Below, in pieces: positions 1,657 through 37,028 of a stretch of DNA of 64,000 nt. Position numbers and translations under genes: made by a program. The stretch covers positions 1 through 64,000 of the IMG/VR virus record IMGVR_UViG_3300042301_005010; one strand, 5' to 3'. The notes beneath the pieces are model-generated. The model worked only from the letters and a program-made list of their open reading frames with translations. It was not told where the DNA came from and made no database searches. Each line of letters opens with the position of its first letter. Within the stretch, counting starts at the first letter, position 1. Source of the stretch: a virus.

Positions 1657-2008
1657 TGGTAGCCTCGGTGCAATCGATCGCGATAGGGAACGGGCGAACC
1701 CAAACCAACACCGGGCTGGTGATCGGGTTAGGGGGATCGCCTGCAATGAGCGAGAGCCAGTTGGCGTGGGAAAGGGCCATCACCCGCAACAACGACTGGA
1801 TGGATTCCGGCATGGTCTGCTGAAGCTCGTTGTGGCAGGCGCCGAGGGCGGCCTCGATGACCCACAGCAAGCTCTTGAAATCGTTGGCCGGGAGCTGGTC
1901 AGGGCAGCAGGGTTGAAACTGCTGCTGGCCGTAGCCGCGCTGCAGGTGAAGGCTGCCATCGGCAAACAGGGCAAACCCTGTGATGGGCTGATCGGTGGAG
2001 GAATTCAT
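1517..2008 (-). CDS. Hypothetical protein, 163 aa
   Basis: Starts MNSSTDQPITGFALFADG. Residues 1-110 have normal composition with a helical segment (SLLWVIEAALGACHNELQQ). The last ~45 residues lie on top of the endonuclease gene in another frame and look like a shadow (proline/arginine rich). The natural protein may therefore be shorter, or continue into the endonuclease through a frameshift. No domain recognised. Confidence 0.55.
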   Translation of the reverse strand: MNSSTDQPITGFALFADGSLHLQRGYGQQQFQPCCPDQLPANDFKSLLWVIEAALGACHNELQQTMPESIQSLLRVMALSHANWLSLIAGDPPNPITSPVLVWVRPFPIAIDCTEATNAKPSRGSFCQPVAVLLPRPALPARVHPARVGHLGLVQEAGRAEVA

Positions 2009-2041
2009 GGCTGCAATGCGGTGGGGAGGGCTTGATGCAGA

Positions 2042-2458
2042 TCAAGCGCTGGCCTTATCGCTGTCGCTGCGATCGGTTGCGATGGGAATGCCGGAGCGCG
2101 GGCGCATGGGGATGACGCCCAGTTCCAGCTCCCGCTGGTTGGGGTCTCTGCGGCTGAGACCTCGCTGGCCCGCGTTGTAGAACCAGATGCTGGATTCCCT
2201 GGGCGGCCGAGGTGCTTTCATGACCACCTCGTCGCGGACGACCAGGCGGTTTTCGTGGCCCAGCTGCGTCACGGTCACCTTCAGGGTGATGGTGCCGGTG
2301 CCACCGTTGGCCAGTACCGCCTCGCTGACCTTGGAGAGGGCGTCGGACAGCTCGGTGTGAGTGCGTCCGTCGCGTTGGGAGAAGAGGAACTGCCCGAAGG
2401 GAGAGGCCTCCAAGGCTTCCTCGCTTTCGGTCTGGCTGTCGATGATGTCGTCGTTCAT
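2042..2458 (-). CDS. Conserved-looking phage protein, 138 aa
   Basis: Start ATG at 2458 (MNDDIIDSQTESEE). The N-terminus is acidic. It is followed by alternating hydrophobic strands (TITLKVTVTQLGHENRLVVRDEV) and a C-terminus with many prolines and arginines. The layout suggests a small beta-rich nucleic-acid- or protein-binding phage protein. It lies directly downstream of the DUF2303 gene, in the same direction, with a 38-bp gap. Specific function unknown. Confidence 0.7.
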   Translation of the reverse strand: MNDDIIDSQTESEEALEASPFGQFLFSQRDGRTHTELSDALSKVSEAVLANGGTGTITLKVTVTQLGHENRLVVRDEVVMKAPRPPRESSIWFYNAGQRGLSRRDPNQRELELGVIPMRPRSGIPIATDRSDSDKASA

Positions 2459-2496
2459 GGAGAGAGAGATCGGAGTGGATGCAGAAGGGGAAGGCC

Positions 2497-3456
2497 TCAG
2501 ACCTTCCCGTAGAAGACGGGCATCCCCAACAGGTTGGAGACCTCGTCAACCACTTCCTTAAAGGCGTGCTCGATTGCCATCTCCGGGTCCACCAGCAGGA
2601 CAGAGAGTTTCACGGCGGAGTCCACAATCCGGTAGCGGAGGCGAGCCTTCACGGCGTAGGCCTTGCCGTACTTAAACAACGGCATGGCGACGGTGAGCAC
2701 CTCGGGGATGGAGATGTCAGCGCGCTCCCCTGCGGTGGCGTTGATCTGCTCCTCCCGCTTCAGCTTGATAGCGCCACTGGAAAGCCGAACGGCGCTGCTG
2801 AAATCGACGGTGGACTTGGCGTTGAAGGTCTGGGCGATCTCCAGGATCGTGGCGGCATCCGGGCTGGAGAAGGTCTCCAGGTTCAGCTCACAGAACTCGG
2901 CGAAATCTTGCTGCGCCATGTACGTGCCGCTGGCCTTCGCCCACCGCATCGACTCGGAGCTGCCGACCAGCTTCAGGTCGGCGTAGACGGTGCCCCATTC
3001 GTTGGGCTGTGCGTCGAAGATCAGCCTAACGGTGCCTTGGGCCTCGTCAGCGATGCAAAGGGCCCTGCTGCGCCTGGGCCGGTAGGCATCATCATCGAGG
3101 CCTTCGGGGTCGTTGTCGAAGACGCTCAGCACATAGGACGTGAAGCTCTGGATGCCGTGGAAGGCGTAATTGGCCTGAGGTCTGAGCCGCTTACAGCCGG
3201 CGGCATTCAGCAACTCAGGCTTTGTCAGGTCGATGGGTTTGAAACCCTCCCTGGTGCGGACGACATAGAAGTGGCCGGGGAGGAGCTCTATGGGCTCCAC
3301 ACCCAGCAGGGTCTGCTCGATTACGGCGTCAGCCTCGGTTCTGATCGTTGATTCGCTAGGTGGTGAGACCAGCGGCATGGGCCTGGCCGCGGCGATCGCT
3401 TTCGCCGATGTAGAGGGGGACGGGACCGCTGCTGATCTGATCGTTGATTCGCTCAT
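2497..3456 (-). CDS. DUF2303 (YfdQ-like) family protein
   Basis: From the ATG at 3456 the frame gives 319 residues. Residues ~55-319 match the DUF2303/YfdQ pattern: an N-terminal PGHFYVVRTREGFKPIDL region, NEWGTVYADLKLV, an ASGTYMAQQDFAEFCE helix, a long helical middle, and a strand-rich C-terminus ending PVFYGKV. DUF2303 genes usually sit beside recombination genes in phage early operons, and here an ERF gene is adjacent. The exact biochemical role is unknown. The N-terminus carries a 26-residue insertion between two copies of SESTIR, encoded by a 78-bp copy of ERF-gene DNA (see repeats). The ancestral N-terminus was probably MSESTIRTEADAV. A longer start at 3645 is in frame but low-complexity. 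Confidence 0.85.
   Translation of the reverse strand: MSESTIRSAAVPSPSTSAKAIAAARPMPLVSPPSESTIRTEADAVIEQTLLGVEPIELLPGHFYVVRTREGFKPIDLTKPELLNAAGCKRLRPQANYAFHGIQSFTSYVLSVFDNDPEGLDDDAYRPRRSRALCIADEAQGTVRLIFDAQPNEWGTVYADLKLVGSSESMRWAKASGTYMAQQDFAEFCELNLETFSSPDAATILEIAQTFNAKSTVDFSSAVRLSSGAIKLKREEQINATAGERADISIPEVLTVAMPLFKYGKAYAVKARLRYRIVDSAVKLSVLLVDPEMAIEHAFKEVVDEVSNLLGMPVFYGKV
3340..3453. repeat. 78-bp insertion flanked by 18-bp direct repeats
   Basis: TCTGATCGTTGATTCGCT occurs at 3340-3357 and again at 3436-3453. The 78 bp between them (3358-3435) are identical to 4099-4176 in the ERF gene. Mismatches begin exactly at both ends of the 78 bp. Eighteen and 78 are both multiples of three, so the DUF2303 frame is kept, but the inserted piece is read in a different frame from the one used in ERF. 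The arrangement looks like an insertion with target duplication, or a template-switch event. Confidence 0.95.
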
Positions 3457-3721
3457 GGGGATGGGGATGAAAGGGGAACAGAAGGGAAGACGGGTTGTGT
3501 TGCTGCAAATGGCCTTGGTCCGGTCCAGTCGGGTGCAGTCCCCCTGGAGCCAACCGGATCCCTCGATGGGGCCCGTTACCGGAGAGAGGCCAGCAGCGTC
3601 CACCGCTTGGTCCGAGCAGTGGGCTGGCGTCACCTGGGAGGCCACAACACGCGCAAGCGCGGCAGCACCAGCAGCAGGGCCTAGGGGCCCCGTGCTGGGG
3701 AAAGGCTGAGGCTGGTTCCTG

Positions 3722-4744
3722 TCATGGCGCGTTGCCCTGTGATGCGGCCGCGGCGTTCTTGGCCAGCAGCTGATCAGCGGCCAGGAGCTTCGACTCGATC
3801 TCCTGGAAGCGTTCCGGAGTGATGGCTGGATCCGTCAGTTCCTGCTCGAGGGCGCGGCGATCGTCCTTGCTGATCCACCCAGGCGGTGGGCCCTGACGAA
3901 CTACGGCGGCAGGACCGCGCTGGGTGGCGCTGGCTGGGCCTGCAGCGGAGCGGGAAGGTGTCGTGACGGTCCGCACCGGTTGTTGCTGTGGACCGTTGCC
4001 CTGGCGCGCCTGGCGGGGCTGGCTGTCGCCTGAAGCGTTGAAGTCGTCATCACGCTCAGCGGCGAGGCCTAGCACCATCTGCAGGGCCAACCGGCGGCAG
4101 GTGGTGAGACCAGCGGCATGGGCCTGGCCGCGGCGATCGCTTTCGCCGATGTAGAGGGGGACGGGACCGCTGCTGACGCAACCGCCGCCGGAATGGATCA
4201 GGTAGCCAGTGACCACCGGAGTGCCGTTGTCGTCCAGCTCCTGGCGGGTGACAGCGCAGAGGCCCATGGCGGCAGCGCTCTGGCCGGCGGCGATCACGCT
4301 GGCGAGATCGGCGTAGCCGTAGGAGATCGTCCCGCCTTTTTTTGTGGCGTACTCCGCCTGGCGGTTTTCGACAAGGCGCGGCTCGGTTGCGTGCCATGCT
4401 GCAAGTGCAGCAAACAGCTGCATCTGCTGTTCTGCTGTCGGTTCGTAGTTGAGGAACTCGATCAACCGCCGCCGCTGGTCGTCCTTGAAAACGTGGTCTT
4501 GGCGGCTGGTCTGGTCGTGTTGGGCCTGCGCTTCGGCCAGCACGTGGATCTCTGAGCGGAGCTGGGCGATCACGCCCTCCTGTTTGCGAATCTGCTGGTC
4601 GTGAAAGCCGATTTGCTGGTTGGCGCGGTGGGCGAAGTCTTCCAGTGCCCTGTGGGAGAGCTGTGGACTGGCCGCGGCCGGCGCCCCGGAGAAAGGCGGT
4701 GGAGGATGCGGCGATGGCGCCCCTGACTGGGTACTGGAATCCAT
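3722..4744 (-). CDS. ERF-family single-strand annealing recombinase
   Basis: 340 residues. A proline-rich N-terminus and a coiled-coil-like helix (HDQQIRKQEGVIAQLRSEIHVL) precede the ERF core: AALAAWHATEPRL, YGYADLASVIAAGQSAAAMGL, DDNGTPVVTGYLIHSGGG, then the glycine-poor GQAHAAGLTTCRRLALQM segment and LGLAAERDDD, matching the family's conserved end of the DNA-binding core. The C-terminal tail is Gln/Pro rich, then a helical region. ERF proteins anneal complementary single strands during phage recombination and genome circularisation. Residues 185-210 or so are encoded by the 78-bp stretch that reappears in the DUF2303 gene. Because it fits the ERF family pattern here, this copy is the likely source. 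Confidence 0.88.
   Translation of the reverse strand: MDSSTQSGAPSPHPPPPFSGAPAAASPQLSHRALEDFAHRANQQIGFHDQQIRKQEGVIAQLRSEIHVLAEAQAQHDQTSRQDHVFKDDQRRRLIEFLNYEPTAEQQMQLFAALAAWHATEPRLVENRQAEYATKKGGTISYGYADLASVIAAGQSAAAMGLCAVTRQELDDNGTPVVTGYLIHSGGGCVSSGPVPLYIGESDRRGQAHAAGLTTCRRLALQMVLGLAAERDDDFNASGDSQPRQARQGNGPQQQPVRTVTTPSRSAAGPASATQRGPAAVVRQGPPPGWISKDDRRALEQELTDPAITPERFQEIESKLLAADQLLAKNAAAASQGNAP
4099..4176. repeat. Source copy of the 78-bp duplicated segment
   Basis: Identical over 78 bp to 3358-3435 at a fixed offset of 741 bp. The first differing bases are 4098/3357 and 4177/3436. It lies inside the conserved ERF core. It contains one GGCCGCGGC and one GCGATCGC palindrome side by side. Confidence 0.95.
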
Positions 4745-5095
4745 TCGAGCCGTTGCGAGAGAGGTTGGTAGTGCATCGGTTACGCTGCACCGATCCGCCC
4801 ACCGAACATTAGCACCATTGTGACTTCGTAATGTCGCAGGTTCATGCCGTCGTGAATCAAGTCCCTAACGGCCCTCCTGGCTGCGTCATGGCCACCAGTA
4901 ATGGCGTGCTTTCTGTCACAGTTCTTCATGCCACGGCTGCCGATTTTTTCTGGCAACAGCGGCAGGTGCTGACAGAAGCTTTCAGCTGCAGTGCTTTGCG
5001 CCTACTGATGCTGAGGCCAGAAAACAGCAGCGCTGAACCGATCCAGATGGAATGGAGCCGACCGCCGGAGGCCAGGCCACTGAACGATCCACCGA
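4745..5095. promoter_or_regulatory. Intergenic region upstream of ERF; possible small plus-strand ORF
   Basis: About 350 bp between two minus-strand genes. On the minus strand, GCTAATGTTCGG (4804-4815) resembles ACTTATGTTCGG (6055-6066) upstream of the next operon gene, so both could be promoter -10 regions or operators. A 92-codon plus-strand ORF (4831-5109) is present, but it runs against the operon and has no recognisable domain. I rate it unlikely to be a gene. Nothing else is evident. Confidence 0.35.
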
Positions 5096-6010
5096 TCAGT
5101 CGACACTGATCGCCGTTTCCGACCCCTGCTGCTTGGCTGAGGCCTTTGCAAGCTGCTGCGCCTTTCGATCTTCCAAGCGCTGCAGCAGCACCTGGGTGGC
5201 GAGCTGCTCACCCTCTACCTGCTCAGGCCCCCAGGTTTCCGTGCCAAGCAGCACCAACCGGAGAAACTTCTGCCGCTCGGGCTCCTTGCCTGGGTAGAGC
5301 TCGACGATCTGGGCCCAGTCCTCAACGATGTCCAGGCCTGCGTCGATGGCGGCTTTGCGCAGCGTGCGGCCTGAGATGCACTCCGGAGGCCTCTCTTGCT
5401 CTGCTGCGGCCTGCTTTTTGACGAGTGGCTCTGGGGTGAGGCGACTGATGGCAATGGACAGGAGCTCCTCGGGCCCAAAAACGCCCTGCTGATCGCGCAG
5501 CACGTGCGCGCTGGCGACGCAGTCCCGGAGTCGCTGATCTGTCGGTGCCGCTTGCTTGCCAGCTTGCACGGCCGCAACCCATTCATTCAGCCGCCCAAGC
5601 TCCAAGAAGAAGGTGCTGGCGAGAGAGCGGCTTTTGCGCCGCAGAAACAGGTTGAGCCCACTCGAATGCAGGCGGCTGGTCAGGCTGACCTCCCGCCAAC
5701 CGGGGACATCATCTGCAGGCTCAGAGGCTGGAGTTCCGATCGCCTCCCAGACATGGCCGCGGTGGTTGACCCATTGCCCGGCCTGCAGAGACATTCCAGC
5801 GACCCACTCCGAGATCGGTTCCGAGGATCGCGCCAGCAGGGCCAGCTCAGCAAGTCGTGAGGTGACAGCCAGGCTCCAGCCGTTGTAGTCCAGCCACTGC
5901 TCGATCAACGAGCGCAAGACCTCACGGCCGCTCTGCTCAGTGATCAGCCAGTGGTCTCGAGCAACAGGCTCTGACCCTGGCGGCCTCGACATTTGCTGCT
6001 GCTGATCCAT
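5096..6010 (-). CDS. Hypothetical protein, 304 aa, first gene of the minus-strand early operon
   Basis: Start taken at the ATG at 6010 (MDQQQQMSRPPGSEP). An ATG at 6061 is also in frame but adds an arginine-rich shadow. Residues ~90-120 (AGQWVNHRGHVWEAIGTP) look like a small beta hairpin motif. Residues 170-300 are largely helical with acidic/basic patches (ELLSIAISRLTPEPLVKKQAA, VEDWAQIVELYPGKEPERQ). No known family. As the promoter-proximal gene of the recombination operon it may have a regulatory or replication role, which is inference only. Confidence 0.7.
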   Translation of the reverse strand: MDQQQQMSRPPGSEPVARDHWLITEQSGREVLRSLIEQWLDYNGWSLAVTSRLAELALLARSSEPISEWVAGMSLQAGQWVNHRGHVWEAIGTPASEPADDVPGWREVSLTSRLHSSGLNLFLRRKSRSLASTFFLELGRLNEWVAAVQAGKQAAPTDQRLRDCVASAHVLRDQQGVFGPEELLSIAISRLTPEPLVKKQAAAEQERPPECISGRTLRKAAIDAGLDIVEDWAQIVELYPGKEPERQKFLRLVLLGTETWGPEQVEGEQLATQVLLQRLEDRKAQQLAKASAKQQGSETAISVD

Positions 6011-6389: not shown

Positions 6390-7673
6390 ATGCCAACCAA
6401 AGATTTCAGCGGTGAGTTGCACCGCGCTCTGTTTGCACAGATTCCGCTCGACTTGCTGAGCAGCTGTGCACAGATAGGGCGCAGGAGGTTGGTATTCGTA
6501 TATGCCTGGCTCTGGTTTTATGCCGGTCAAGCGGATGACGGATTCCCTTCCGTCCCTCGGCTTGCCCTGGAGTGCGGCATGAAGGAACGGGACATCAGAA
6601 CGGCACTTTCGACCCTCCTCAGTGAGGGTTGGATCATCAAATCGGGCACAGGACCCAACGGGACTAACCGGTATCGGATCCGTATGGAAACAGGCCGCAA
6701 AAAGCGAACATCGAAACCCATTGCAGTGCAACGCAAGTCAGCACACCCCCTCCCCCCAGAGGGGACCCCCCCCCAGGGCCCCCCCCCTCCCCCCAGAGGG
6801 GACTCCCCCGGAAGGGGACCCCTCCCCCCAGAGGGGACTCCCCCTGGGGGGGACCCAATCAATAAACCCTTAAACGAAGAAGAAGAAATCCAAGAAGGGT
6901 TAAATGATTACTCCACTACATATATCCACCAACGCGGCGAAAAAATCGATGCCACGGCGCCAACGGTCACGACGGCCGAGCCCGTCGCGACAGCGGTCGA
7001 GATCGTGATAGCCTCAGCTCACAACGACGCTCCCCAGCGCCATGCCCAACCGGCAACCCAGCCCCCGGCAGCCGCCTCAACCCTCCCCGACTGCGCCCAC
7101 CCGCACCGCCAGCTGCTGCGCGAGTGGTGGCTCAGGCGCCGCAGCAAGCACCCCGCCGCGGCCAACGAGCTCAGCGCTGGCGACATCCAGGCCATCCAGC
7201 ACGCCGACGCCCTGGGGGTCCTCCGGCCGTTTCTCGAACACGCTGCCGCCAGCGGCTGCAAAACCCTCGTCACCGGTTACCGGCGTCGCTGTGAACAGCT
7301 CCGCGCCGGCCCTGCAGCCGCTGAGGCCTTCGACACCCTTCGCAGCGCCTACCTGGCGGCGCCCCGTCGGGTCCCCTGTCAATCTCTGCCCGCTGCCCAG
7401 AGAGAGTTTTCCGCCGTGCTGGCTGAGGGCCACACCGCCGAGCAGCTGGTAGCGGCCCTGGCCGCTGAAATCCGCGCTCAGGACCAGCAGCACGCCTCCA
7501 CGGGTTTTGCCCCATCCCTGCCTGATATCGCTCGCTGGCTGAAGGAGCGCCGGTTCGCCGCCTACCTGCAGCAGAACCAGCCCGCCGCCCCCGCCGCATT
7601 TGAGGCCCCGATCGATCCAGAAACCGGCGCCCCAGACCCCTTCGCCTACCACCGTCACATCACAGGCCAATGA
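6390..7673 (+). CDS. Winged-helix replication-initiation-type protein
   Basis: From the ATG at 6390, 427 residues. The N-terminus (~1-105) is a winged helix-turn-helix: RRLVFVYAWLWFYAG, DGFPSVPRLALECGMKERD, IRTALSTLLSEGWIIKSG, NRYRIR. This is the HTH type found in phage and plasmid replication proteins. A low-complexity Pro/Gly linker (~120-160) is encoded by three C-rich hairpin repeats, then an acidic stretch. The C-terminal half contains a helical domain (HRQLLREWWLRRRSKHP, DIQAIQHADALGVLRPFLEHA). The DnaD-like layout suggests it binds the origin or recruits host helicase. No polymerase or helicase is seen in the window. A longer upstream start (6258) is in frame but lacks protein-like character. 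Confidence 0.6.
   Translation: MPTKDFSGELHRALFAQIPLDLLSSCAQIGRRRLVFVYAWLWFYAGQADDGFPSVPRLALECGMKERDIRTALSTLLSEGWIIKSGTGPNGTNRYRIRMETGRKKRTSKPIAVQRKSAHPLPPEGTPPQGPPPPPRGDSPGRGPLPPEGTPPGGDPINKPLNEEEEIQEGLNDYSTTYIHQRGEKIDATAPTVTTAEPVATAVEIVIASAHNDAPQRHAQPATQPPAAASTLPDCAHPHRQLLREWWLRRRSKHPAAANELSAGDIQAIQHADALGVLRPFLEHAAASGCKTLVTGYRRRCEQLRAGPAAAEAFDTLRSAYLAAPRRVPCQSLPAAQREFSAVLAEGHTAEQLVAALAAEIRAQDQQHASTGFAPSLPDIARWLKERRFAAYLQQNQPAAPAAFEAPIDPETGAPDPFAYHRHITGQ
6750..6838. repeat. Three C-rich hairpin repeats inside the replication gene
   Basis: CTCCCCCCAGAGGGGAC occurs at 6750-6766, 6787-6803 and 6822-6838. Each copy folds on itself (CCCC, AGA loop, GGGG), and runs of seven to nine C separate them, so the minus strand has many G-tracts. 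The block encodes the Pro/Gly linker. It is prone to slippage, and to hairpin or G-quadruplex formation. Confidence 0.9.
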
Positions 7674-16770: not shown

Positions 16771-17164
16771 CCCCCACGGGCCGCCGGGCCTGCCCCCGCC
16801 TCTCAACCAGGAGCAGCAACAGCTGCTGGATCAGTGGCAGCGAACCGCCGCTATCGAACTGAGCGAGGGCGAAGATCTCACCAACTTCAACCGCTCGGCA
16901 GCCGGCATCGCCTACATGCTCTCCAACCTCAGATCTGAGATCACCGGTGCCTCCGGCCTGCCTCACACCCTGCTATGGGGTGAATCCCCCTCCGGCCTGG
17001 GGGCCGACACCGATCAGCTGGCGGCAGCCTTCCGCCCCTTTGGCATTGCAGCCCATCGCATTGTGGCCGTGCTTGAACGCCTAATTATTCAAGCCGAGCG
17101 AGGTAGCCCCATCGGCCGCAAGCGGCGCGCACGCCGTGCCAGAGGCCGCCGCCGCCATGCCTGA
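16763..17164 (+). CDS. Mosaic ORF containing a 48-codon portal fragment
   Basis: Reads from a TTG at 16763. Residues ~35-82 match the portal protein in frame (NRSAAGIA, SEITGASGLPHTLLWGESPS), while the N-terminal Pro/Gln-rich part and the C-terminal basic tail do not. It could be expressed as a small protein, or be debris of an old recombination at the portal gene. The weak start and hybrid composition favour a relic. Confidence 0.45.
   Translation: MPDPHGPPGLPPPLNQEQQQLLDQWQRTAAIELSEGEDLTNFNRSAAGIAYMLSNLRSEITGASGLPHTLLWGESPSGLGADTDQLAAAFRPFGIAAHRIVAVLERLIIQAERGSPIGRKRRARRARGRRRHA
16865..17008. repeat. Diverged direct repeat of portal gene segment
   Basis: These 144 bp align without gaps to 20297-20440 inside the portal gene at roughly 87 percent identity by eye, in the same strand and same reading frame. 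Similarity stops on both sides. Confidence 0.85.
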
Positions 17165-18360: not shown

Positions 18361-19347
18361 CTACGCGGCCAGCGGGAACAGAAGCAGCTGCTGCTCAATC
18401 TCAATCTCGATCACCAGCAGCTCCACCTGGTCCCCGCCGGGCTGGTGATCGGCGGCCATCAGGTGCTGCGCCATCGCCAGCGCTCGCTCCCACAGCCGTT
18501 CGGCGGCCAACCGGGTGATCCCCATCGCCAGGCCGGCCTCCTGGCAGGTGTGCCCGGCCAGCCGGCGCCTCATGATCTCCCGCAGATCAGGCCAGGGTTC
18601 AAGCGCCTCCAGCACTTGGGCACGCTCTGTGGTCGTAGTGTCCGCTGTTGTCGTTGGTGCCGCCACGGTGGTGATGTAGGCATCCCCTTCGCCATCGTTC
18701 ATCAAGGAATCGAGCGAAACCACCTGCCGGACGGCGGCCGCCTGCCGCAGGATCCGCAGGTCGGCGGCGCTGAGCCCCATCCCCTCCATCGCCTCCTGAT
18801 CCGTCGGTGAGCGACCCTCACGGGCTGTGAAGGCCTCCACCCATTGGCGCAGCTGGTTCATCTTCGATGCCCGCTTCACTGGGAGTCGAATCGAACCGCT
18901 GGTGTGCACCATCCGGGTCATCGACTGCCGGATCCACGGAACCGCATAGGTCGCGAAACTGAAGCCCCGCGTGGGGTCGAATTTCTCCGCCGCCCTGGTG
19001 AGCCCGATCGCACCCTCCTGGATCAGGTCCTGCGGCTCCAGGGCCACCACCGACGACACCGAGAACGAGCGGGCCTGTGTCGCCACCAGCAGCATGTTGC
19101 GAGAAACCATCTGCTCCCGCGCCCGCCGGCCGGCCCGCTGCACACCAGGCGGGGCCTCATCTGGCGCTGGATCCCAATCCAGCCACTTCCGGATGGCCCG
19201 GCCCAGCAGCACCTGCTCCTCCCTGGAGGGGATGGGCAGCTGCGCATACGCACCGAGCAGCGAATCGAGCGGGGAGCCCAACGGACTAGGGCTGATGTTC
19301 GGCCCCAGCCTATGGCGCGTAACGTCGCTTGCCAGTGATATAGCCAA
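18361..19347 (-). CDS. Phage-borne sigma-70-family RNA polymerase sigma factor
   Basis: 328 residues (TTG start at 19347, upstream limit uncertain). Region 1.2-like DSLLGAYAQLPIPSREEQVL, then region 2 with the core-binding and -10-recognition helix (DLIQEGAIGLTRAAEKFDPT, FSFATYAVPWIRQSM), IRLPVKRASKMNQL of region 3, and a weaker region 4 HTH near the end (HTCQEAGLAMGITRLAAERL). This resembles group 2/3 cyanobacterial sigma factors. It is embedded between phage terminase and portal genes, divergent from the portal with only 37 bp between them, where AGGCC/GGCCT forms a short inverted repeat. It probably redirects host RNA polymerase to phage promoters. Confidence 0.85.
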   Translation of the reverse strand: MAISLASDVTRHRLGPNISPSPLGSPLDSLLGAYAQLPIPSREEQVLLGRAIRKWLDWDPAPDEAPPGVQRAGRRAREQMVSRNMLLVATQARSFSVSSVVALEPQDLIQEGAIGLTRAAEKFDPTRGFSFATYAVPWIRQSMTRMVHTSGSIRLPVKRASKMNQLRQWVEAFTAREGRSPTDQEAMEGMGLSAADLRILRQAAAVRQVVSLDSLMNDGEGDAYITTVAAPTTTADTTTTERAQVLEALEPWPDLREIMRRRLAGHTCQEAGLAMGITRLAAERLWERALAMAQHLMAADHQPGGDQVELLVIEIEIEQQLLLFPLAA

Positions 19348-19384: not shown

Positions 19385-21349
19385 GTGACGATCGGTTTCC
19401 TGCAAGACGCTGATTCCCGTTCTGAATGGCGGCTTGATGGCGCCCTGATCAACGTCCTCACCGGCCTGGGCACCGCAAAGGACCGAAACGAGGCGATCGG
19501 CGTCAAGGGCTCCCGGATCCTCTCTGAGTCTGCTGTCAATGCCCTCTATGAGCAGAGCTTTCTGATCCGCCGGATCGTGGAGAAACTCCCCCAGCAGGGC
19601 ACCCGCAGCGGCTGGGACCTGTCGGTGGGGGATGAAACCTCCAGCCGCATGAAGGCCCAGCTCGACGATGTCGTTGGTTGGACCGAAAAGCTCCACCTGC
19701 GCCAGGGCCTGGCCGCGGCCGCCACCTACAGCCGCCTTTATGGCGGTGGCGCCCTGGTGGTGATCGCCGACGACCGCACGCCGATCGACAAACCTCTGAA
19801 CCTCAGGCGGCTCCAGACCATCCACGGCTTCTACCCGATCGATCGTTGGCGCCTCTACCCCGCCGCCGGCTGGTCCGGCATCGGCGAGCCGGAAAACTAC
19901 TGGTTCTGGACTCAGGCCGATCGGGAGCTGCAGAAGCTCAACGATCAGGCGGGCAGCAAGGTAATGACCAGTGCTGGCCTGGGCCTCACCGAAGCCACCC
20001 AAATTGAGATCCACAGCAGCCGGGTGATCCGCATCGAGGGGCTCCCCTGCTCCTGGCGCTCCCAGCAACAGCGGCAGTGGTGGGGGCTTTCTGTGGTGGA
20101 CCTGGTCTGGGATGTCTTCAAGCGGTGGGAGACCGGTCAGCAATCGGCGGCCGACATCCTCCACGACTTCGACCTGGTGGTGCACAAGCTGCCGGGCCTG
20201 GCCAACATGCTCGCCAGCGGTGGGGAGGACAAGCTCCGCCAACGGCTGCAGGCCAACGCCCTGGCCCGCAGCACCATCGGCGCCTACCTCCTGAACGACG
20301 GCGAGGAGCTCACCAACCTCAACCGCTCGGCAGCCGGCATCGCCGACATCATCGCCAACCTCAAAAGCGAGATCACCGGCGCCTCCGGCCTGCCCCACAC
20401 CCTGCTATGGGGTGAGTCCCCCTCCGGCCTGGGGGCCGACGGTCGCAGTGAACAGGCCGCCTTTGGCAACGACGTGGCCGACTGGCAGGCCCAGCACCTC
20501 AAAGAGCCCCTGCGGCGGGTCTACGAGGTGGTGATGGCCTGCGCCGATGGCCCATGGGCAGGGAAAGCCCCCCCCGCCGACTGGGAGATCACCTTCCGGC
20601 CCACCTACACCCCCACGGAAGACGAACAGGCTGAGCTGCGGTCAAAGGTCGCGACAGCCGACGCCCAGTACATCCAAGCCGGTGTGCTGCAGCCCAACGA
20701 GGTGGCCCTGGCCCGCTTCGGGAAACCCCGCTTCAGCCTGGACACCACTCTGTTGAATCGGGAGGCCGATGGATCCATCCCCCAGCCGAAGCAGCCGGAG
20801 GCGGTGGAGTTTGGCGGCAGCCTCGAGGGCGCTCCAGCGGCGGCCCCTGATGCTGCCCCTGCAGAGGAGAATCCAGCCATCACCGGCCCCGCTATCCCCG
20901 AGGCCCCCCCCCGCGCCGATTCCGACGACGAACCCTGCTGCAGCGACTGTGAAACGCGATCGCAGGAGTTGGCAGAGAAGATCAGCAGCAACCGGGCCCG
21001 CCGCAAGCGGCGCCGGGATGAGGAGCCCCGCAACGATGCCACCGGCCAGGTGGTGGAGATCCTGGGGGTGGCGATCCGCATGGATGGCCCCGGAATCGGC
21101 CGCCTGCTGGGCCCCTACGGGCAGACCCTGCCCTATCCCGTGGCGGTGGGTCCTGATCTGAGCGGTGTCTGGGAGGTGTTCGAGCCCAGCAGCGGCGCCT
21201 ACCTGCTGGCCATGGGGCACCAGCACCAGCGGGGGATCCGTGATGCCATCGGCGCCGAGCCCACCATTCGCCGGATCAGTGCCATCGACCTGGTAGCCAT
21301 GGGCGCCCTGTGTGATGCCTACCTTGCCGGAGATAGGGCAGAAGGATGA
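19385..21349 (+). CDS. Portal protein (DUF1073 type) with C-terminal extension
   Basis: 654 residues from a GTG at 19385. The N-terminal 460 residues follow DUF1073 portals: YEQSFLIRRIVEKLPQQGTR near the start, YSRLYGGGALVVIADD, HSSRVIRIEGLP, the conserved SEITGASGLPHTLLWGESPS, and WEITFRPTYTPTEDEQAE. A Pro/Ala linker with CCSDC follows. The last ~110 residues (VEILGVAIRMDGPGIGRLLG onward) are an added domain. Portals form the dodecameric DNA channel. A 144-bp part of this gene is repeated at 16865-17008. Confidence 0.88.
   Translation: MTIGFLQDADSRSEWRLDGALINVLTGLGTAKDRNEAIGVKGSRILSESAVNALYEQSFLIRRIVEKLPQQGTRSGWDLSVGDETSSRMKAQLDDVVGWTEKLHLRQGLAAAATYSRLYGGGALVVIADDRTPIDKPLNLRRLQTIHGFYPIDRWRLYPAAGWSGIGEPENYWFWTQADRELQKLNDQAGSKVMTSAGLGLTEATQIEIHSSRVIRIEGLPCSWRSQQQRQWWGLSVVDLVWDVFKRWETGQQSAADILHDFDLVVHKLPGLANMLASGGEDKLRQRLQANALARSTIGAYLLNDGEELTNLNRSAAGIADIIANLKSEITGASGLPHTLLWGESPSGLGADGRSEQAAFGNDVADWQAQHLKEPLRRVYEVVMACADGPWAGKAPPADWEITFRPTYTPTEDEQAELRSKVATADAQYIQAGVLQPNEVALARFGKPRFSLDTTLLNREADGSIPQPKQPEAVEFGGSLEGAPAAAPDAAPAEENPAITGPAIPEAPPRADSDDEPCCSDCETRSQELAEKISSNRARRKRRRDEEPRNDATGQVVEILGVAIRMDGPGIGRLLGPYGQTLPYPVAVGPDLSGVWEVFEPSSGAYLLAMGHQHQRGIRDAIGAEPTIRRISAIDLVAMGALCDAYLAGDRAEG
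20297..20440. repeat. Portal copy of the 144-bp direct repeat
   Basis: Counterpart of 16865-17008, within the conserved portal core. The two copies lie 3.4 kb apart and flank the sigma/LexA cassette. Confidence 0.85.
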
Positions 21350-23478
21350 GCCTGGCGGTTTCGCTACAGCACCGGCTTGATGCCCTCAGGCGGAAATGCA
21401 CCACCGGCTATGGGTGCGGCAGCAGTTGCATCAGCCTGCGCAAGGAATGCCGCACCAGCCCCCGCAGCGCCATCGGGAAGGAGCGGATGAAGCGGCTCCT
21501 GGAGCTCGCCGGCGGCGGGGCCTCCTCCCAGCGGGGCATTGCCCCGGTGAAGGGGAAGGAAGCCGGTGATCTTGCCGGCAGCATTGCCACCCGCCGGGGG
21601 GAAAAGGCGGGCCAACTGAAGGGCGCCCGCCAGCAGGCGGCGGCTGAGAAGGCCCAGGCAGCAGCAGAGAAGCAAGCGGTTGAGGCTGCAGCAGCCAAGG
21701 CAGCCACGCCCCCCTCCAGCACTGGCACCGGCATGGCCCCAGCCGGCACGCCCCGGGGAGAAGCCGATCGGGCAGCCAAGGAAGCGGACCCCGACTACAA
21801 ATTCGCCCGGGCATCGGCCGTCGGCAACGCAGGAGAGGACATCGGCGACTCCGCCCGCCACAAGCGCAACGCATTCCGCACCATCGAAGAAGCCGAGGCC
21901 AGCGGCCAAGTGGAGAAGGTTCTCACCAGGGACAACCTGATGAAAAACTTTCCCACCGACCTGATCAGCGGTGCCAGCGAAAGCAACATCCTGTCCCGCC
22001 TGGAGGCTCATTTCAGTCTCAAGGCCTTCCCCAGCCTCTCACCCAAGGACGTGGACTCCTACGTCAAAACGCAGGAGCGCTTTCAAGACGGCGAAAGAAC
22101 ATATGCCGGCCGTCAAATACAAGAAGTTGATGCAAAGACCGTTCGCAAGCAATACTTCGATGCTTTCCAGTCCCTCCGCAAGGTCGTCGACGATGGCAAA
22201 GACTCAGAGCCAGGCGAGCTGAGGAAACAAGTACAAAGGAAACTATCAGACCTGATCTCAGAGATTCGAGGACAGGAAGGCACCGGATATTTCCGCACCT
22301 ACAGAGACCCTTACAACCCAACCGCCAATGTACTAATCTCCATGCAAAGGCGCATGTATCAAAAAGGCACTACAAGTGTCCTTGGGCAGATGAATGCGTT
22401 TGCTGTTGCCCTGAAGAAAGAAGGGCAGATGGTCGAAGCCAGGCCAACCATGGAGCGAGCCCTGGATGCTGGCACCAAGATCATGGAGGGCTCCAGCATG
22501 GCCGCGGCCTTTGGCCAGCAAGGCAACGGCAAGTGGCGCTTCAACCCTGCCGACCACTACGTCGGTTATGCACGGCGCGAGGGTGGCCGCAATGTGGGAG
22601 GCACCCCTGACGCGGCAACCGACACGATCGTGAAAGGCCTCGGGTTCCGGGGTCTCCAGTACGGCAACTCAGTCACAGACGACGAGCGAAAGCACCACGT
22701 ACAGAAGGCGGCTGAGGCCCTGGTGGACCTGGCAGATGCCACAGGCCTGCCTGACAGCGCCATCGGTTTGAACGGAACCCTTGGCCTGGCCGTCGGCGCC
22801 AGGGGCCGCGGCGGCGCCGTTGCGCACTATGAACCAACCATGAAGGTCATTAACCTCACCCGCAAAAAAGGCGTCGGCAGCCTGTCCCACGAATGGGGCC
22901 ACGCCCTGGACAACTACGCCGCCGGCGGGGGAAGCTTTTTGTCGCAAAACAGTGGTGCGCCAGAAAAGCGTGCCGCAATGAACGAGGTGAAGAGCGCCTG
23001 GACGACAAGCGGCTTCACGCGACAGGTGTATGACTCAATTCGCGAGGTCAAAAAGGCCGGGGGCCAGCTCAGTGACGATTATTGGCTGAGTGATGTGGAA
23101 ATGTTTGCCCGGTCGTTCGAGGCCCACGTCTCACTGAAGCTGGAGAAGGCTGGCAGATCCAACACCTATCTCACCAGAGAGTTTGATGACTCTGGGATGA
23201 AGAAGGGCAATGCAGCAGAGCGGCGCCTGGGTGATGGCCTGTGGCCCACCAGGAAACAGGCCGAGGCGATGGAGCCCATGTTTGATGCCCTGCTGGCCCA
23301 GATCAAGAAGGATGACTTTCCAGGAGCCAGCAACCGCCGGGACAGCCGTGAGCAGCGGATCCAGCGGCTGCTCCAGGAGGCCTACCAGGCCGCTGCCGCC
23401 GATCAGCGAGCTCATGCGAGGACGCTCCAGCAAAGGAGCGACGCCCTGCGGGCAAGCTGCACCCCCTTGAATGGCTGA
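21346..23478 (+). CDS. Polyvalent protein with four-Cys module and zincin-like LPD1 domain
   Basis: 710 residues, coupled to the portal by ATGA. Residues 11-45 hold the module RKCTTGYGCGSSCISLRKEC (Cys 18, 24, 28, 35) followed by PRSAIGKERMKRL. An Ala/Lys-rich linker follows. Residues ~470-620 match the large polyvalent-protein domain LPD1: LNGTLGLAVGARGRGGAVAH, then SLSHEWGHALDNY (HEWGH at 515-519), a metallopeptidase-like site. The C-terminus echoes the N-terminus (QQRSDALRASC). Polyvalent proteins are thought to be packaged and ejected with phage DNA to act early in the host. Residues ~240-370 are less GC-rich. Confidence 0.8.
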   Translation: MSLAVSLQHRLDALRRKCTTGYGCGSSCISLRKECRTSPRSAIGKERMKRLLELAGGGASSQRGIAPVKGKEAGDLAGSIATRRGEKAGQLKGARQQAAAEKAQAAAEKQAVEAAAAKAATPPSSTGTGMAPAGTPRGEADRAAKEADPDYKFARASAVGNAGEDIGDSARHKRNAFRTIEEAEASGQVEKVLTRDNLMKNFPTDLISGASESNILSRLEAHFSLKAFPSLSPKDVDSYVKTQERFQDGERTYAGRQIQEVDAKTVRKQYFDAFQSLRKVVDDGKDSEPGELRKQVQRKLSDLISEIRGQEGTGYFRTYRDPYNPTANVLISMQRRMYQKGTTSVLGQMNAFAVALKKEGQMVEARPTMERALDAGTKIMEGSSMAAAFGQQGNGKWRFNPADHYVGYARREGGRNVGGTPDAATDTIVKGLGFRGLQYGNSVTDDERKHHVQKAAEALVDLADATGLPDSAIGLNGTLGLAVGARGRGGAVAHYEPTMKVINLTRKKGVGSLSHEWGHALDNYAAGGGSFLSQNSGAPEKRAAMNEVKSAWTTSGFTRQVYDSIREVKKAGGQLSDDYWLSDVEMFARSFEAHVSLKLEKAGRSNTYLTREFDDSGMKKGNAAERRLGDGLWPTRKQAEAMEPMFDALLAQIKKDDFPGASNRRDSREQRIQRLLQEAYQAAAADQRAHARTLQQRSDALRASCTPLNG

Positions 23479-33163: not shown

Positions 33164-33597
33164 TGAACTGGCTCGATGGACTGCTGGAGCCCCTGCTGGA
33201 TCGCCTCGCCCTGAAGCTGGCGCTCAAGGTCCGCGCCCAGCTGGATGGTGCGATCGATGCCGCGCTAGATCGGGCGGAAGACCGGATCGACACGGCCTTT
33301 GAGGGGCTGGAGGAGCGGCTGCAGGCAGCTGCCACAAAGCCCATCGCGGAGCTGAAAGCGGCGCTGGCGCCGGTCATCACCTTGCAGCAGCAGCTCCAGG
33401 GTGATGTCTGGTCGAATGCTGCAGAGATCCAGCAGCAGGCGATTGAGGAGGCGGCCAAAGCTGCCGGGATGATCCCAGCCAAAGAAATGGAGGGCCAGAT
33501 CGGCTTCGCAGTGGCCTCGGCGCGTGCTGCCGCGGTGGATCACCTGCGCAGCCGCTTGACGCCGCCCCGGCCGTGGAAGGAGATCCCTGATCGATGA
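33163..33597 (+). CDS. Coiled-coil protein, 144 aa
   Basis: From the ATG at 33163, a long amphipathic helix (LDGAIDAALDRAEDRIDTAF, EGLEERLQAAATKPIAELKA) followed by EIQQQAIEEAAKAAGM. Looks like a fibre-associated or head-assembly coiled coil. The stop overlaps the start of the large polyvalent gene (ATGA). Confidence 0.65.
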   Translation: MNWLDGLLEPLLDRLALKLALKVRAQLDGAIDAALDRAEDRIDTAFEGLEERLQAAATKPIAELKAALAPVITLQQQLQGDVWSNAAEIQQQAIEEAAKAAGMIPAKEMEGQIGFAVASARAAAVDHLRSRLTPPRPWKEIPDR

Positions 33598-36500
33598 GTC
33601 GCCACCAGTCCCTGCTGGATCGCCTCTCGGCCATCGAGGCCCAGCTCGTCTCGACGAACCGGCAGGCCCTGCCCCGGCGGCCCATGGCCCTGCGGCATGA
33701 CGCTGGCGATCGGGTCTCCCCGGTGCTGCAGCAGCTACTGGCCGAGGTGCTTCCCGGCGCCCTGGTGCTCGACTGGCGGCAGGAGGGTGCTGCCCATGCC
33801 GGGCGGATGGCCGCCGATGGCCTGGTCTTTCAATTCCGTGTCGATGCCGAAGGCGTCGGCTATCGCCCCGCTTGGGAGGGGGTGCTGCAGCGTGGCTGGG
33901 AGCTGCGATCGGATTCGTTCCTGCAGCTGCGGGCCCCCGGCTCCCGGATGGACTTCCGCCGCACCCGGGCCGGCAGTGGCCAGAAGCGGAAATGCGCCAC
34001 CGGCTACGGCTGCGGCAACGCCTGCATCTCCCTCCAGAAGGAGTGCCGGATCGCCCCCCGTTCAGCGCTCGGCAAGGGCCGCCTGCGGCGCCTCCAACAG
34101 CTGGCTGCCGCCGGCGACCAGTCGGCCGGGGCCACCGCCAGCCAGGTGCAGGCCTCCCGCGGGGCGGCCGCAGCGGCCCTGCAGAAGGACCGCACCACCC
34201 AACGGGTGCAGAAGCTGCTCGAGCGGCCGGAGATTGCCGAGTTCCTGCGCACCGGCAAGCTCCCCGCCACGGCCAACAGCTCCACCGAGCCCGGGACCGT
34301 CCGGGAGATGAAGCCAGGGGAGATCGGCTTCGATCCCTCCCGGTTCCAGTACAAGCTCAACGCCACCGCCACCACCGGCGAGGTGGGCAGCCTGTCGGGG
34401 GTGCGCAAGTGGGACGCCAACCTTTCCGGCGTGATGGCTGTCTGGAAGGACCCAGGCGACGGCAAGGTCTACGTGATCAATGGCCATAACAGGCTGGCCC
34501 TGGCCAACCGCCTGGGGGCGGAGGCCGTCACGGTGCGGTTCCTCAATGCCGCCACCGCCACCGAGGCCCGGGCGATCGGGGCCCTGCAGAACATCGCCGA
34601 AGGGGCAGGCTCCCCCATGGATGCGGCCAAATTTTTCCGCGACACCGGCATCAAAAACCAGCAGGACGTGGAGGCCCGGGGCCTGCCCCTGGGCAGCGGC
34701 CAGGCCGCGAAGGGGCTGAGCCTCAGCAAGCTCCCCGGCGACGTGTTCAACGCCGTGGTGCGCGGGGACCTGACGGAGAACCGCGGGGCGATCATCGGCG
34801 GTAGTGGCCTCGATGACACGAAGCAGCGGGAGGTGTTCAAGATGATCGGCTCCCGCAAGGCCATCACCGATCAGACCCTGCAGGAGCTGGTGGAGCATGC
34901 CGCTGCCAGCGTGCAACGCACCCAGACCACGATGAGCCTGTTCGGCGAGACCGAGGAGGCGAAAGACAACTTGATCACCCGGGCCAAGCTCTCCGCCTCC
35001 CTGAAGGCCAAGATCAGCCGCGAGAAGAGGTTGTTCGCCACCGTCAGCAAGGCCAAGGCCGCCACCAGCCTGACCGAGAAGGGGGGGAACGTGATCAATC
35101 AGGAGCAGAGCGCCAAGGTGGCCGGCGAGGCCAGCGAGGCCCTGGGGGTGTTCGAGCGGCTGAAGAGCAGCGCCGGCCCGATCAGCTCTGCCCTCAACCG
35201 TGCCGCCGATCGGGTGGAGGCCGGCGAGGCCGAGGCCACGGTGCGGAAGGAGCTGGAGCGCGATGTCTTCGCCGCTGTCGAGCAGGAGCTGGTGTCGGTA
35301 GGGCTGCGCAAGCGGCCCCGGGCCGACAGCCTGCAGGAACGGATCGATGCCCTCAAACGGAAATGCAGCACCGGTTACGGCTGCGGGTCGGCCTGCATCA
35401 GCCTCCGGAAGGAATGTCGCACCACTCCCCGCAGCGCCATCGGGAAGGAGCGCATGAAGCGGCTGCTGGCCCTGGCCCAGGGCGAAATCAAGCCCAAGGG
35501 GATAGGTGTGCCTAAAGCAGCCGAAGCGGCCACCATGGCGGCTGATCTGCAGGGTCGGCGCACCGGCCAGGCTCAGGAGCTGCGATTCCAGCGCCAGGCT
35601 GCTCGTCGAGCCAAGGCTGGTCAAGAGAAACAAACCAATCCCTACCGGCCAACTCCGCAAATTAAGGAGGGCGTCACCTTAAAGCCAATGAGCATCGCTG
35701 CAGGAGGCGATACAAACTACGATCCAGCAGTAGAGAAGAGAAAAGCAGCGGGTGGCCTGAAGTATTACCGCACCCAGCGTGGAGGAGCCACCAAGCAAAA
35801 CTACTTTTTCCGGGATCGCCAGGCAGCAGAGCACTGGTACGCAGACCACAACGCTAAAAGTGACGCGGATGCCGAGGAGGGCACCCATAATCGCCGTGGC
35901 AACGAGTGGCAGGCCGAGTACAAGGCCTCCTATGTGGGCAATCGAAACCTTCTGCGAGACACCAGCGACCGCGAAGTGCTGGAGACAGTTGAGGCCTTTG
36001 CAGCTGCCGGCACAGCAACAAGAGGGGGGACCGCAACAGATGTGCGCATCGGTGGCAACAAGCATTCCAGGCCGATTCGAGAGGGCACGTTTGCAAATGG
36101 GAACGCATCAGAAGGCTCACCCCAGCCGGTGCTGACCAACCCCGGCCGCCAGGATCCCGGCCTAGCCCCCAACGCCAAGCAGCCAGGCCTCAACGCCCAG
36201 GACGTGACCACCAGCAAGCAGCAGGCCGCCTTCGCCCGGCAGCAGCAGCAGGCAGCCCAGGCCGCCGGGGATCAATCCGGGGCTCAGGCCTGGCAGAAGG
36301 AGGAGCGGACGGTGGAGCGCAACCGGCTGGCCACCGCCATCTCCAGCAGCAAGCAGAGCCAGAGCTCGCTGTTTGGGGTCACCGAATACGACGAGACCAT
36401 GCCGCTGTTCAAGGGACAACCCGCCAGCACCCCCAGCACCGGCGGAAGCCTGGCCGTCCAGTCCGGCGGTGGAGCAGCCGCCCGGCCCACGGCGGCCGGC

Positions 36501-37028
36501 CCTGCCTCCAAACCCGGCAGCGTCTCACAAGCCCTCAAGCAGACCCTGGGGGCCCTCAGGGCCGCCGACGCCCGGCAGATGGGCATGATTGCTGAGCAGC
36601 TCTTCGAGGCCGGCTGGACGATCGACCGCCGCACCCGCTACCGGGGCATGAGCAAGGATCAGGCCCGGGAGAAGTTCAAAATCGAGTTTGCCCAGAAGAT
36701 GCAGGCCCAGGCCAGCTCCCCTGAAGCTGCCGCCCGATCCGCGGCAATGCGCAACCGTGCCGGCGCCTCCGGAACGGTCTCTGGTGCCCTGAAGAGCGTG
36801 CTCGAGGACATGAAGGCCCAGGACAAGCGGCTGAACGATCTCCAGAAGCAGACGATCGACCTGCGCATCCAGGCAGAGGAGCAGTTTGGTGGTGAGGAGG
36901 GCGAAGATCAATCGCTGGGTGGTGGCCGGCCGCGGCGGCGCCTCGGCGGCGGCCGCCGCCGGGATGCCGACATCCTCGAAGCCCGGATTGACGCCCTGCG
37001 GGTCCAATGCGCCACCATGAGCCGATGA
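33594..37028 (+). CDS. Large polyvalent protein with ParB-like domain and two four-Cys modules
   Basis: 1,144 residues. Residues ~130-165 and ~588-625 carry the module KC-x5-C-x3-C-x6-C (Cys 134/140/144/151 and 591/597/601/608) followed by P-R-S-A-(L/I)-G-K. Residues ~240-400 are ParB-like: REMKPGEIGFDPSRFQYK, VYVINGHNRLALANRLGAEA, then helices, with SLFGETEEAKDN as a linker. After the second module comes an AT-richer segment (~690-800) with basic and aromatic residues, then Gln/Ala-rich and helical parts. The C-terminus ends RIDALRVQCATMSR, a fragment of the module start. Likely packaged and ejected with DNA, by analogy with polyvalent proteins. Confidence 0.8.
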   Translation: MSRHQSLLDRLSAIEAQLVSTNRQALPRRPMALRHDAGDRVSPVLQQLLAEVLPGALVLDWRQEGAAHAGRMAADGLVFQFRVDAEGVGYRPAWEGVLQRGWELRSDSFLQLRAPGSRMDFRRTRAGSGQKRKCATGYGCGNACISLQKECRIAPRSALGKGRLRRLQQLAAAGDQSAGATASQVQASRGAAAAALQKDRTTQRVQKLLERPEIAEFLRTGKLPATANSSTEPGTVREMKPGEIGFDPSRFQYKLNATATTGEVGSLSGVRKWDANLSGVMAVWKDPGDGKVYVINGHNRLALANRLGAEAVTVRFLNAATATEARAIGALQNIAEGAGSPMDAAKFFRDTGIKNQQDVEARGLPLGSGQAAKGLSLSKLPGDVFNAVVRGDLTENRGAIIGGSGLDDTKQREVFKMIGSRKAITDQTLQELVEHAAASVQRTQTTMSLFGETEEAKDNLITRAKLSASLKAKISREKRLFATVSKAKAATSLTEKGGNVINQEQSAKVAGEASEALGVFERLKSSAGPISSALNRAADRVEAGEAEATVRKELERDVFAAVEQELVSVGLRKRPRADSLQERIDALKRKCSTGYGCGSACISLRKECRTTPRSAIGKERMKRLLALAQGEIKPKGIGVPKAAEAATMAADLQGRRTGQAQELRFQRQAARRAKAGQEKQTNPYRPTPQIKEGVTLKPMSIAAGGDTNYDPAVEKRKAAGGLKYYRTQRGGATKQNYFFRDRQAAEHWYADHNAKSDADAEEGTHNRRGNEWQAEYKASYVGNRNLLRDTSDREVLETVEAFAAAGTATRGGTATDVRIGGNKHSRPIREGTFANGNASEGSPQPVLTNPGRQDPGLAPNAKQPGLNAQDVTTSKQQAAFARQQQQAAQAAGDQSGAQAWQKEERTVERNRLATAISSSKQSQSSLFGVTEYDETMPLFKGQPASTPSTGGSLAVQSGGGAAARPTAAGPASKPGSVSQALKQTLGALRAADARQMGMIAEQLFEAGWTIDRRTRYRGMSKDQAREKFKIEFAQKMQAQASSPEAAARSAAMRNRAGASGTVSGALKSVLEDMKAQDKRLNDLQKQTIDLRIQAEEQFGGEEGEDQSLGGGRPRRRLGGGRRRDADILEARIDALRVQCATMSR

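Follow-up and report, generated by a model that had tools for sequence, protein, structure and literature searches.

A 78-bp piece of a phage ERF gene copied between 18-bp direct repeats in the neighboring DUF2303 gene, consistent with a replication template switch

The window analyzed here, that is, the whole stretch of DNA under study, comprises bases 1-64000 of a 67,340-bp IMG/VR virus record whose two ends share 125 identical bases, as expected for a complete circular assembly. Two genes of one gene block lie on its minus strand in the same orientation: an intact 340-aa gene (3722-4744) for a single-strand annealing protein of the ERF family (PF04404, E 1.1e-6; phrog_2324, the PHROG Erf-like annealing protein, E 1.2e-12) and, transcribed downstream of it, a 319-aa DUF2303 gene (2497-3456) whose match to PF10065 (E 1.1e-29) covers the residues that follow an insertion at codon 8. 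The ERF gene is the donor of the inserted DNA and the DUF2303 gene its recipient, at a distance of 741 bp. An earlier note on this DNA had reported that positions 3358-3435 equal positions 4099-4176 over 78 bp and that the copy is bounded by 18-bp direct repeats, and both statements proved exact. Sequence comparison gives identity at 78 of 78 positions, in the same orientation and in a different reading frame, and the insert is flanked by two perfect copies of TCTGATCGTTGATTCGCT, one on the left at 3340-3357 and one on the right at 3436-3453, adjoining the ATG. With chance expectations of 1e-35 for exact 78-bp pairs and 6e-11 for an abutting 18-bp repeat, coincidence is excluded for the repeat structure. 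Another exact 78-bp repeat in the window (52448-52525 and 52517-52594) has a 69-bp period and forms a tandem repeat within the longest coding gene; its equal length appears to be a coincidence.

Junction homology amounts to 0 bp on the left and 0-1 bp on the right. The base directly after the donor segment is C in the window and T in the two nearest relatives, contigs G001 and G002 (GCTGCTGAT), and a T also follows the insert. If the copy was taken from this ancestral form of the donor, the match may therefore once have been 79 bp long, the right junction then overlapping by 1 bp.

The net gain of 96 bp (78 copied and 18 duplicated) adds 32 residues in frame, of which 26 are new, being the ERF segment read in another frame, and six form a second SESTIR. 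The earlier figure of 26 added residues thus holds for the insert itself, as do the retained host frame and the duplicated SESTIR, while the full gain is 32. All three frames of the coding strand are open across the copied 78 bp, and since the same would be true of 76% of all 78-bp segments of the ERF gene, the in-frame outcome needs just a one-in-three length and no special selection. Alignments of DUF2303 homologues identify the N-terminus before RTEAD as the most variable part of the family, which marks it as a tolerant site for insertion. Survival of the insert can accordingly be attributed to a length that is a multiple of three, the lack of a stop codon and a freely varying N-terminus. 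The predicted structure of the DUF2303 protein has a mean pLDDT of 36. Repeats of another kind occur at 6746-6853, where three hairpin-like tandem units of 35-37 bp (CCCCTCCCCCCAGAGGGGAC) lie inside a gene for an HTH-domain protein; related units are present in G001 and G002.

Four viral contigs (G001-G004) carry close DUF2303 relatives with 71-92% protein identity, and the 26-residue segment is missing from all four. Their N-termini read MSESTTRTEADA, MSELTTRTEADA, MTEPTIRTEADA or, in one case, an unrelated short stretch before RTEADA. Nor was the segment found in the homologue of G029 (59% identity) or in the more distant ones of G013, G019 and G024. When the window is aligned with G001 and G002, the alignment ends at 3357 and restarts at 3436 with an 18-bp overlap in the relative, in which the 18-bp target is single-copy; this is exactly the pattern of an insertion with an 18-bp duplication. 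Since the segment is lacking in eight of eight homologues, the insertion is derived in the lineage of the window, and an ancestral DUF2303 segment is ruled out. The comparison with related phages that the earlier note had proposed has thus yielded DUF2303 genes lacking the 96-bp addition and, on these alignments, a polarized event. Among GenBank phages, there was no DNA match to positions 2000-6000 and none for the ERF gene, and the DUF2303 relatives found there are distant only; a collection of bacterial genomes contained one very distant relative.

Given that the record is a metagenomic contig, an artefact of assembly or library preparation was weighed and is considered improbable. In favor of an artefact, no second viral contig carries either junction, in scans that may omit records very near the window. 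Against such an origin, neither junction is situated in a repeat of a kind that could mislead an assembler, and two independent chimeric joins sharing one 18-bp target, and in frame, would be unlikely. In addition, both 18-bp copies contain the window's own base where G001 differs, and the identical ends of the record are those of a complete circular assembly.

The donor stretch offers a loose estimate of age. Insert and donor are identical, whereas the ERF genes of the window and G001 differ by 8.4%. The orthologous segment is 95% identical in G002 and 100% identical in G001, and only about 1% of the 78-bp segments of the ERF gene are equally unchanged between the window and G001; the identity of insert and donor therefore dates the event loosely, and the event itself is probably recent, as judged from these sequences.

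The reading preferred here, at a probability of roughly 0.6, is a single, relatively recent round-trip template switch during replication, of the type described as serial replication slippage, FoSTeS or MMBIR. The nascent strand would have departed from its template at the start of the DUF2303 gene, used the ERF gene, 741 bp away, as template for 78 (or 79) bases and then rejoined its original template 18 bp behind the position at which it had left, so that 18 bp were copied twice. In the MMBIR model, whether a deletion or a duplication arises depends on where the strand returns, a return behind the point of collapse leading to duplication (PMC2621351), and the same explanation has been given for 118 bp of templated DNA inserted in a human gene (PMC12469571). 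The phage insertion resembles these cases in its short and nearby template, its direct orientation and a duplication that fits a return behind the departure point (PMC2621351, PMC12469571); it differs from them in its setting, namely coding DNA of a phage with the frame preserved. Two hallmarks of such a switch are present: an insert copied exactly from elsewhere in the genome (78/78 with 4099-4176) and a displaced return point, visible as an 18-bp duplication of a sequence that is single-copy in relatives. A third differs, as MMBIR junctions usually show 2-5 bp of microhomology (PMC2621351) and the phage junctions only the 0 and 0-1 bp given above, so that the insertion is better said to work like a template switch than to be a proven member of this class.

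A potential hairpin, whose 8-bp arms match perfectly, has a loop that consists almost entirely of the donor segment. The left arm (CCGGCGGC, 4091-4098) abuts the left end of the donor, and the right arm (GCCGCCGG, 4184-4191) lies 7 bp past its right end; the arms are conserved in G001 and G002. An 8-bp inverted repeat so close occurs around 0.0022 of random 78-bp segments genome-wide and around 0.0099 of those within the ERF gene, and with a wider margin around 0.6% of random segments in the genome; as the fold was noticed first, this post hoc test is modest and places chance at 0.002-0.01. The DNA fold has a z-score of -2.2, and the window contains no known RNA family and no tRNA. A connection between the bounding hairpin and the copying is suggestive only. 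In the template-switch reading, the nascent strand would have annealed in the exposed, single-stranded loop of the ERF hairpin, which likely accounts for the choice of the copied piece, and a polymerase moving from right to left would have been halted on reaching the left arm, at which the copied stretch ends. Hairpins can supply single strands in the MMBIR model, in which annealing by Rad52 is also expected (PMC2621351). Help from the phage's own ERF protein is possible. Phage Rad52-like annealing proteins are described as annealing short or diverged strands (PMC3945230, PMC8093625), and this phage resembles the phages with relaxed recombination in encoding an Erf-family protein. Relaxed recombination uses real stretches of homology, unlike the present junctions, which contain no such stretch. 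If the hairpin did bound the copied piece, it would suggest a testable rule governing the choice of copied segments.

The chief rival of the template switch is the capture of a short fragment, which is possible, if clearly the less probable of the two. Here, an 18-nt staggered cut or gap would have been joined to a free 78-nt ERF fragment, arising for example by degradation or hairpin cleavage, and fill-in would have duplicated the 18 bp. Near-blunt junctions together with a precise target duplication are the outcome of staggered-end fill-in, and a nuclease acting on hairpins could set free a donor that is placed between inverted arms. In human cells, breaks are known to be patched with distant DNA, although the experimentally made patches (class 2) show no target duplications (PMC5110952). 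Profile searches of the phage genome gave no match to Ku, and no staggered cutter was identified. A staggered cut by a cos-type terminase was considered and set aside, given that the large terminase, encoded 10 kb away, matches the T4-like type; T4-like large terminases are usually headful enzymes. In Acinetobacter baylyi, double illegitimate recombination reportedly integrates DNA segments by two illegitimate joins, unlike the phage case in leading to replacement and not to an exact 18-bp target duplication. The description of this process for Acinetobacter, cited in PMC8116780, lends fragment capture a precedent.

An enzyme-driven origin was also considered, either as a retrocopy of ERF mRNA with target duplication, similar to LINE-1-dependent class 1 insertions, or as the action of a transposase or integrase on a tiny cargo. 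The insert shares with human templated sequence insertion polymorphisms its derivation from elsewhere in the genome, and with class 1 of these a duplicated target, a duplication of at least 5 bp being the mark of that class (PMC5110952); donor and recipient also share their coding strand. It differs from class 2, which lacks target duplications, and from class 1 itself, which depends on the LINE-1 reverse transcriptase and has a poly(A) end, neither of which was found in the phage case. The insert has no poly(A)-like tail, and a profile search covering the phage's own genes across the whole 67,340-bp genome found no match to RVT_1 (reverse transcriptase). Furthermore, the cargo comes from the interior of the ERF gene and carries no terminal inverted repeats inside and no recombinase-coding content, the inverted arms (4091-4098 and 4184-4191) lying outside the copied segment. 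As no second event appeared across the 930 kb of related sequence either, these observations together make an enzyme-driven origin highly improbable.

Recurrence was assessed in 43 related contigs comprising 930,360 bases. A scan for copied segments of at least 24 bp flanked by direct repeats returned the case at 3340-3453 and, apart from it, only tandem arrays in one contig (L063). In the comparison of contig against contig, 136 candidate insertions were obtained; the insertion of the window was the only one with a distant template, and two others were of the tandem type. The further short copied segments between direct repeats for which the earlier note had proposed a search therefore did not turn up in these 43 contigs. 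Nothing in them points to an element or to a recurrent process, and a single event yields no rate, strand bias or junction statistics. With neither recurrence in the 43 contigs nor an RVT_1 match, a mobile element or enzyme-specific insertion was rejected. Both alternatives of the earlier note can now be judged: the better fit is a switch of template to the gene lying 741 bp away, whereas a tiny mobile insertion with target-site duplication found no support. The earlier note knew of no described mobile element with an 18-bp duplication and so short a cargo, but no element is needed, as a strand that resumes synthesis 18 bp behind where it left would produce an identical picture. A more novel reading, in which the phage's own annealing protein or a new phage enzyme actively places short pieces of genes into targets with an 18-bp stagger and phage genes thereby acquire new N-terminal segments, is very unlikely.

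The insertion thus belongs to a familiar kind of mutation, displayed with unusual clarity in a phage, and is no new element. If the template-switch reading is correct, it provides a clean, polarized natural example from a phage, legible in its donor, target, return point and empty site alike, and shows how a single step can extend the N-terminus of a gene product by 32 residues in frame.

Other repeated segments were observed in the window and its relatives. Positions 16859-17008 and 20291-20440 are 89% identical over 150 bp, the former reproducing, in frame, an internal part of the portal gene and situated 3.4 kb upstream of the matching part of that gene in a hypervariable region of small genes. 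Among the 43 related contigs, this copy is common only to G001 and L038; it is an older gene-fragment copy whose ends are not resolvable. Contig L036 contains two copies of a 60-bp leader ending in CCATG (73-132 and 413-472), one ahead of each of two consecutive small genes, as if such genes came with a common leader. Positions 35331-35477, within a gene for 1144 aa (33594-37028), match about 21363-21509 at the start of the gene at 21346-23478 over approximately 147 bp with 82% identity and a 26-bp exact core, which probably reflects a shared protein segment. Finally, the minus-strand gene at 18361-19347, next to the portal gene, codes for a protein with a match to sigma-70 region 2 (E 3.2e-14), which suggests a phage-encoded sigma factor.
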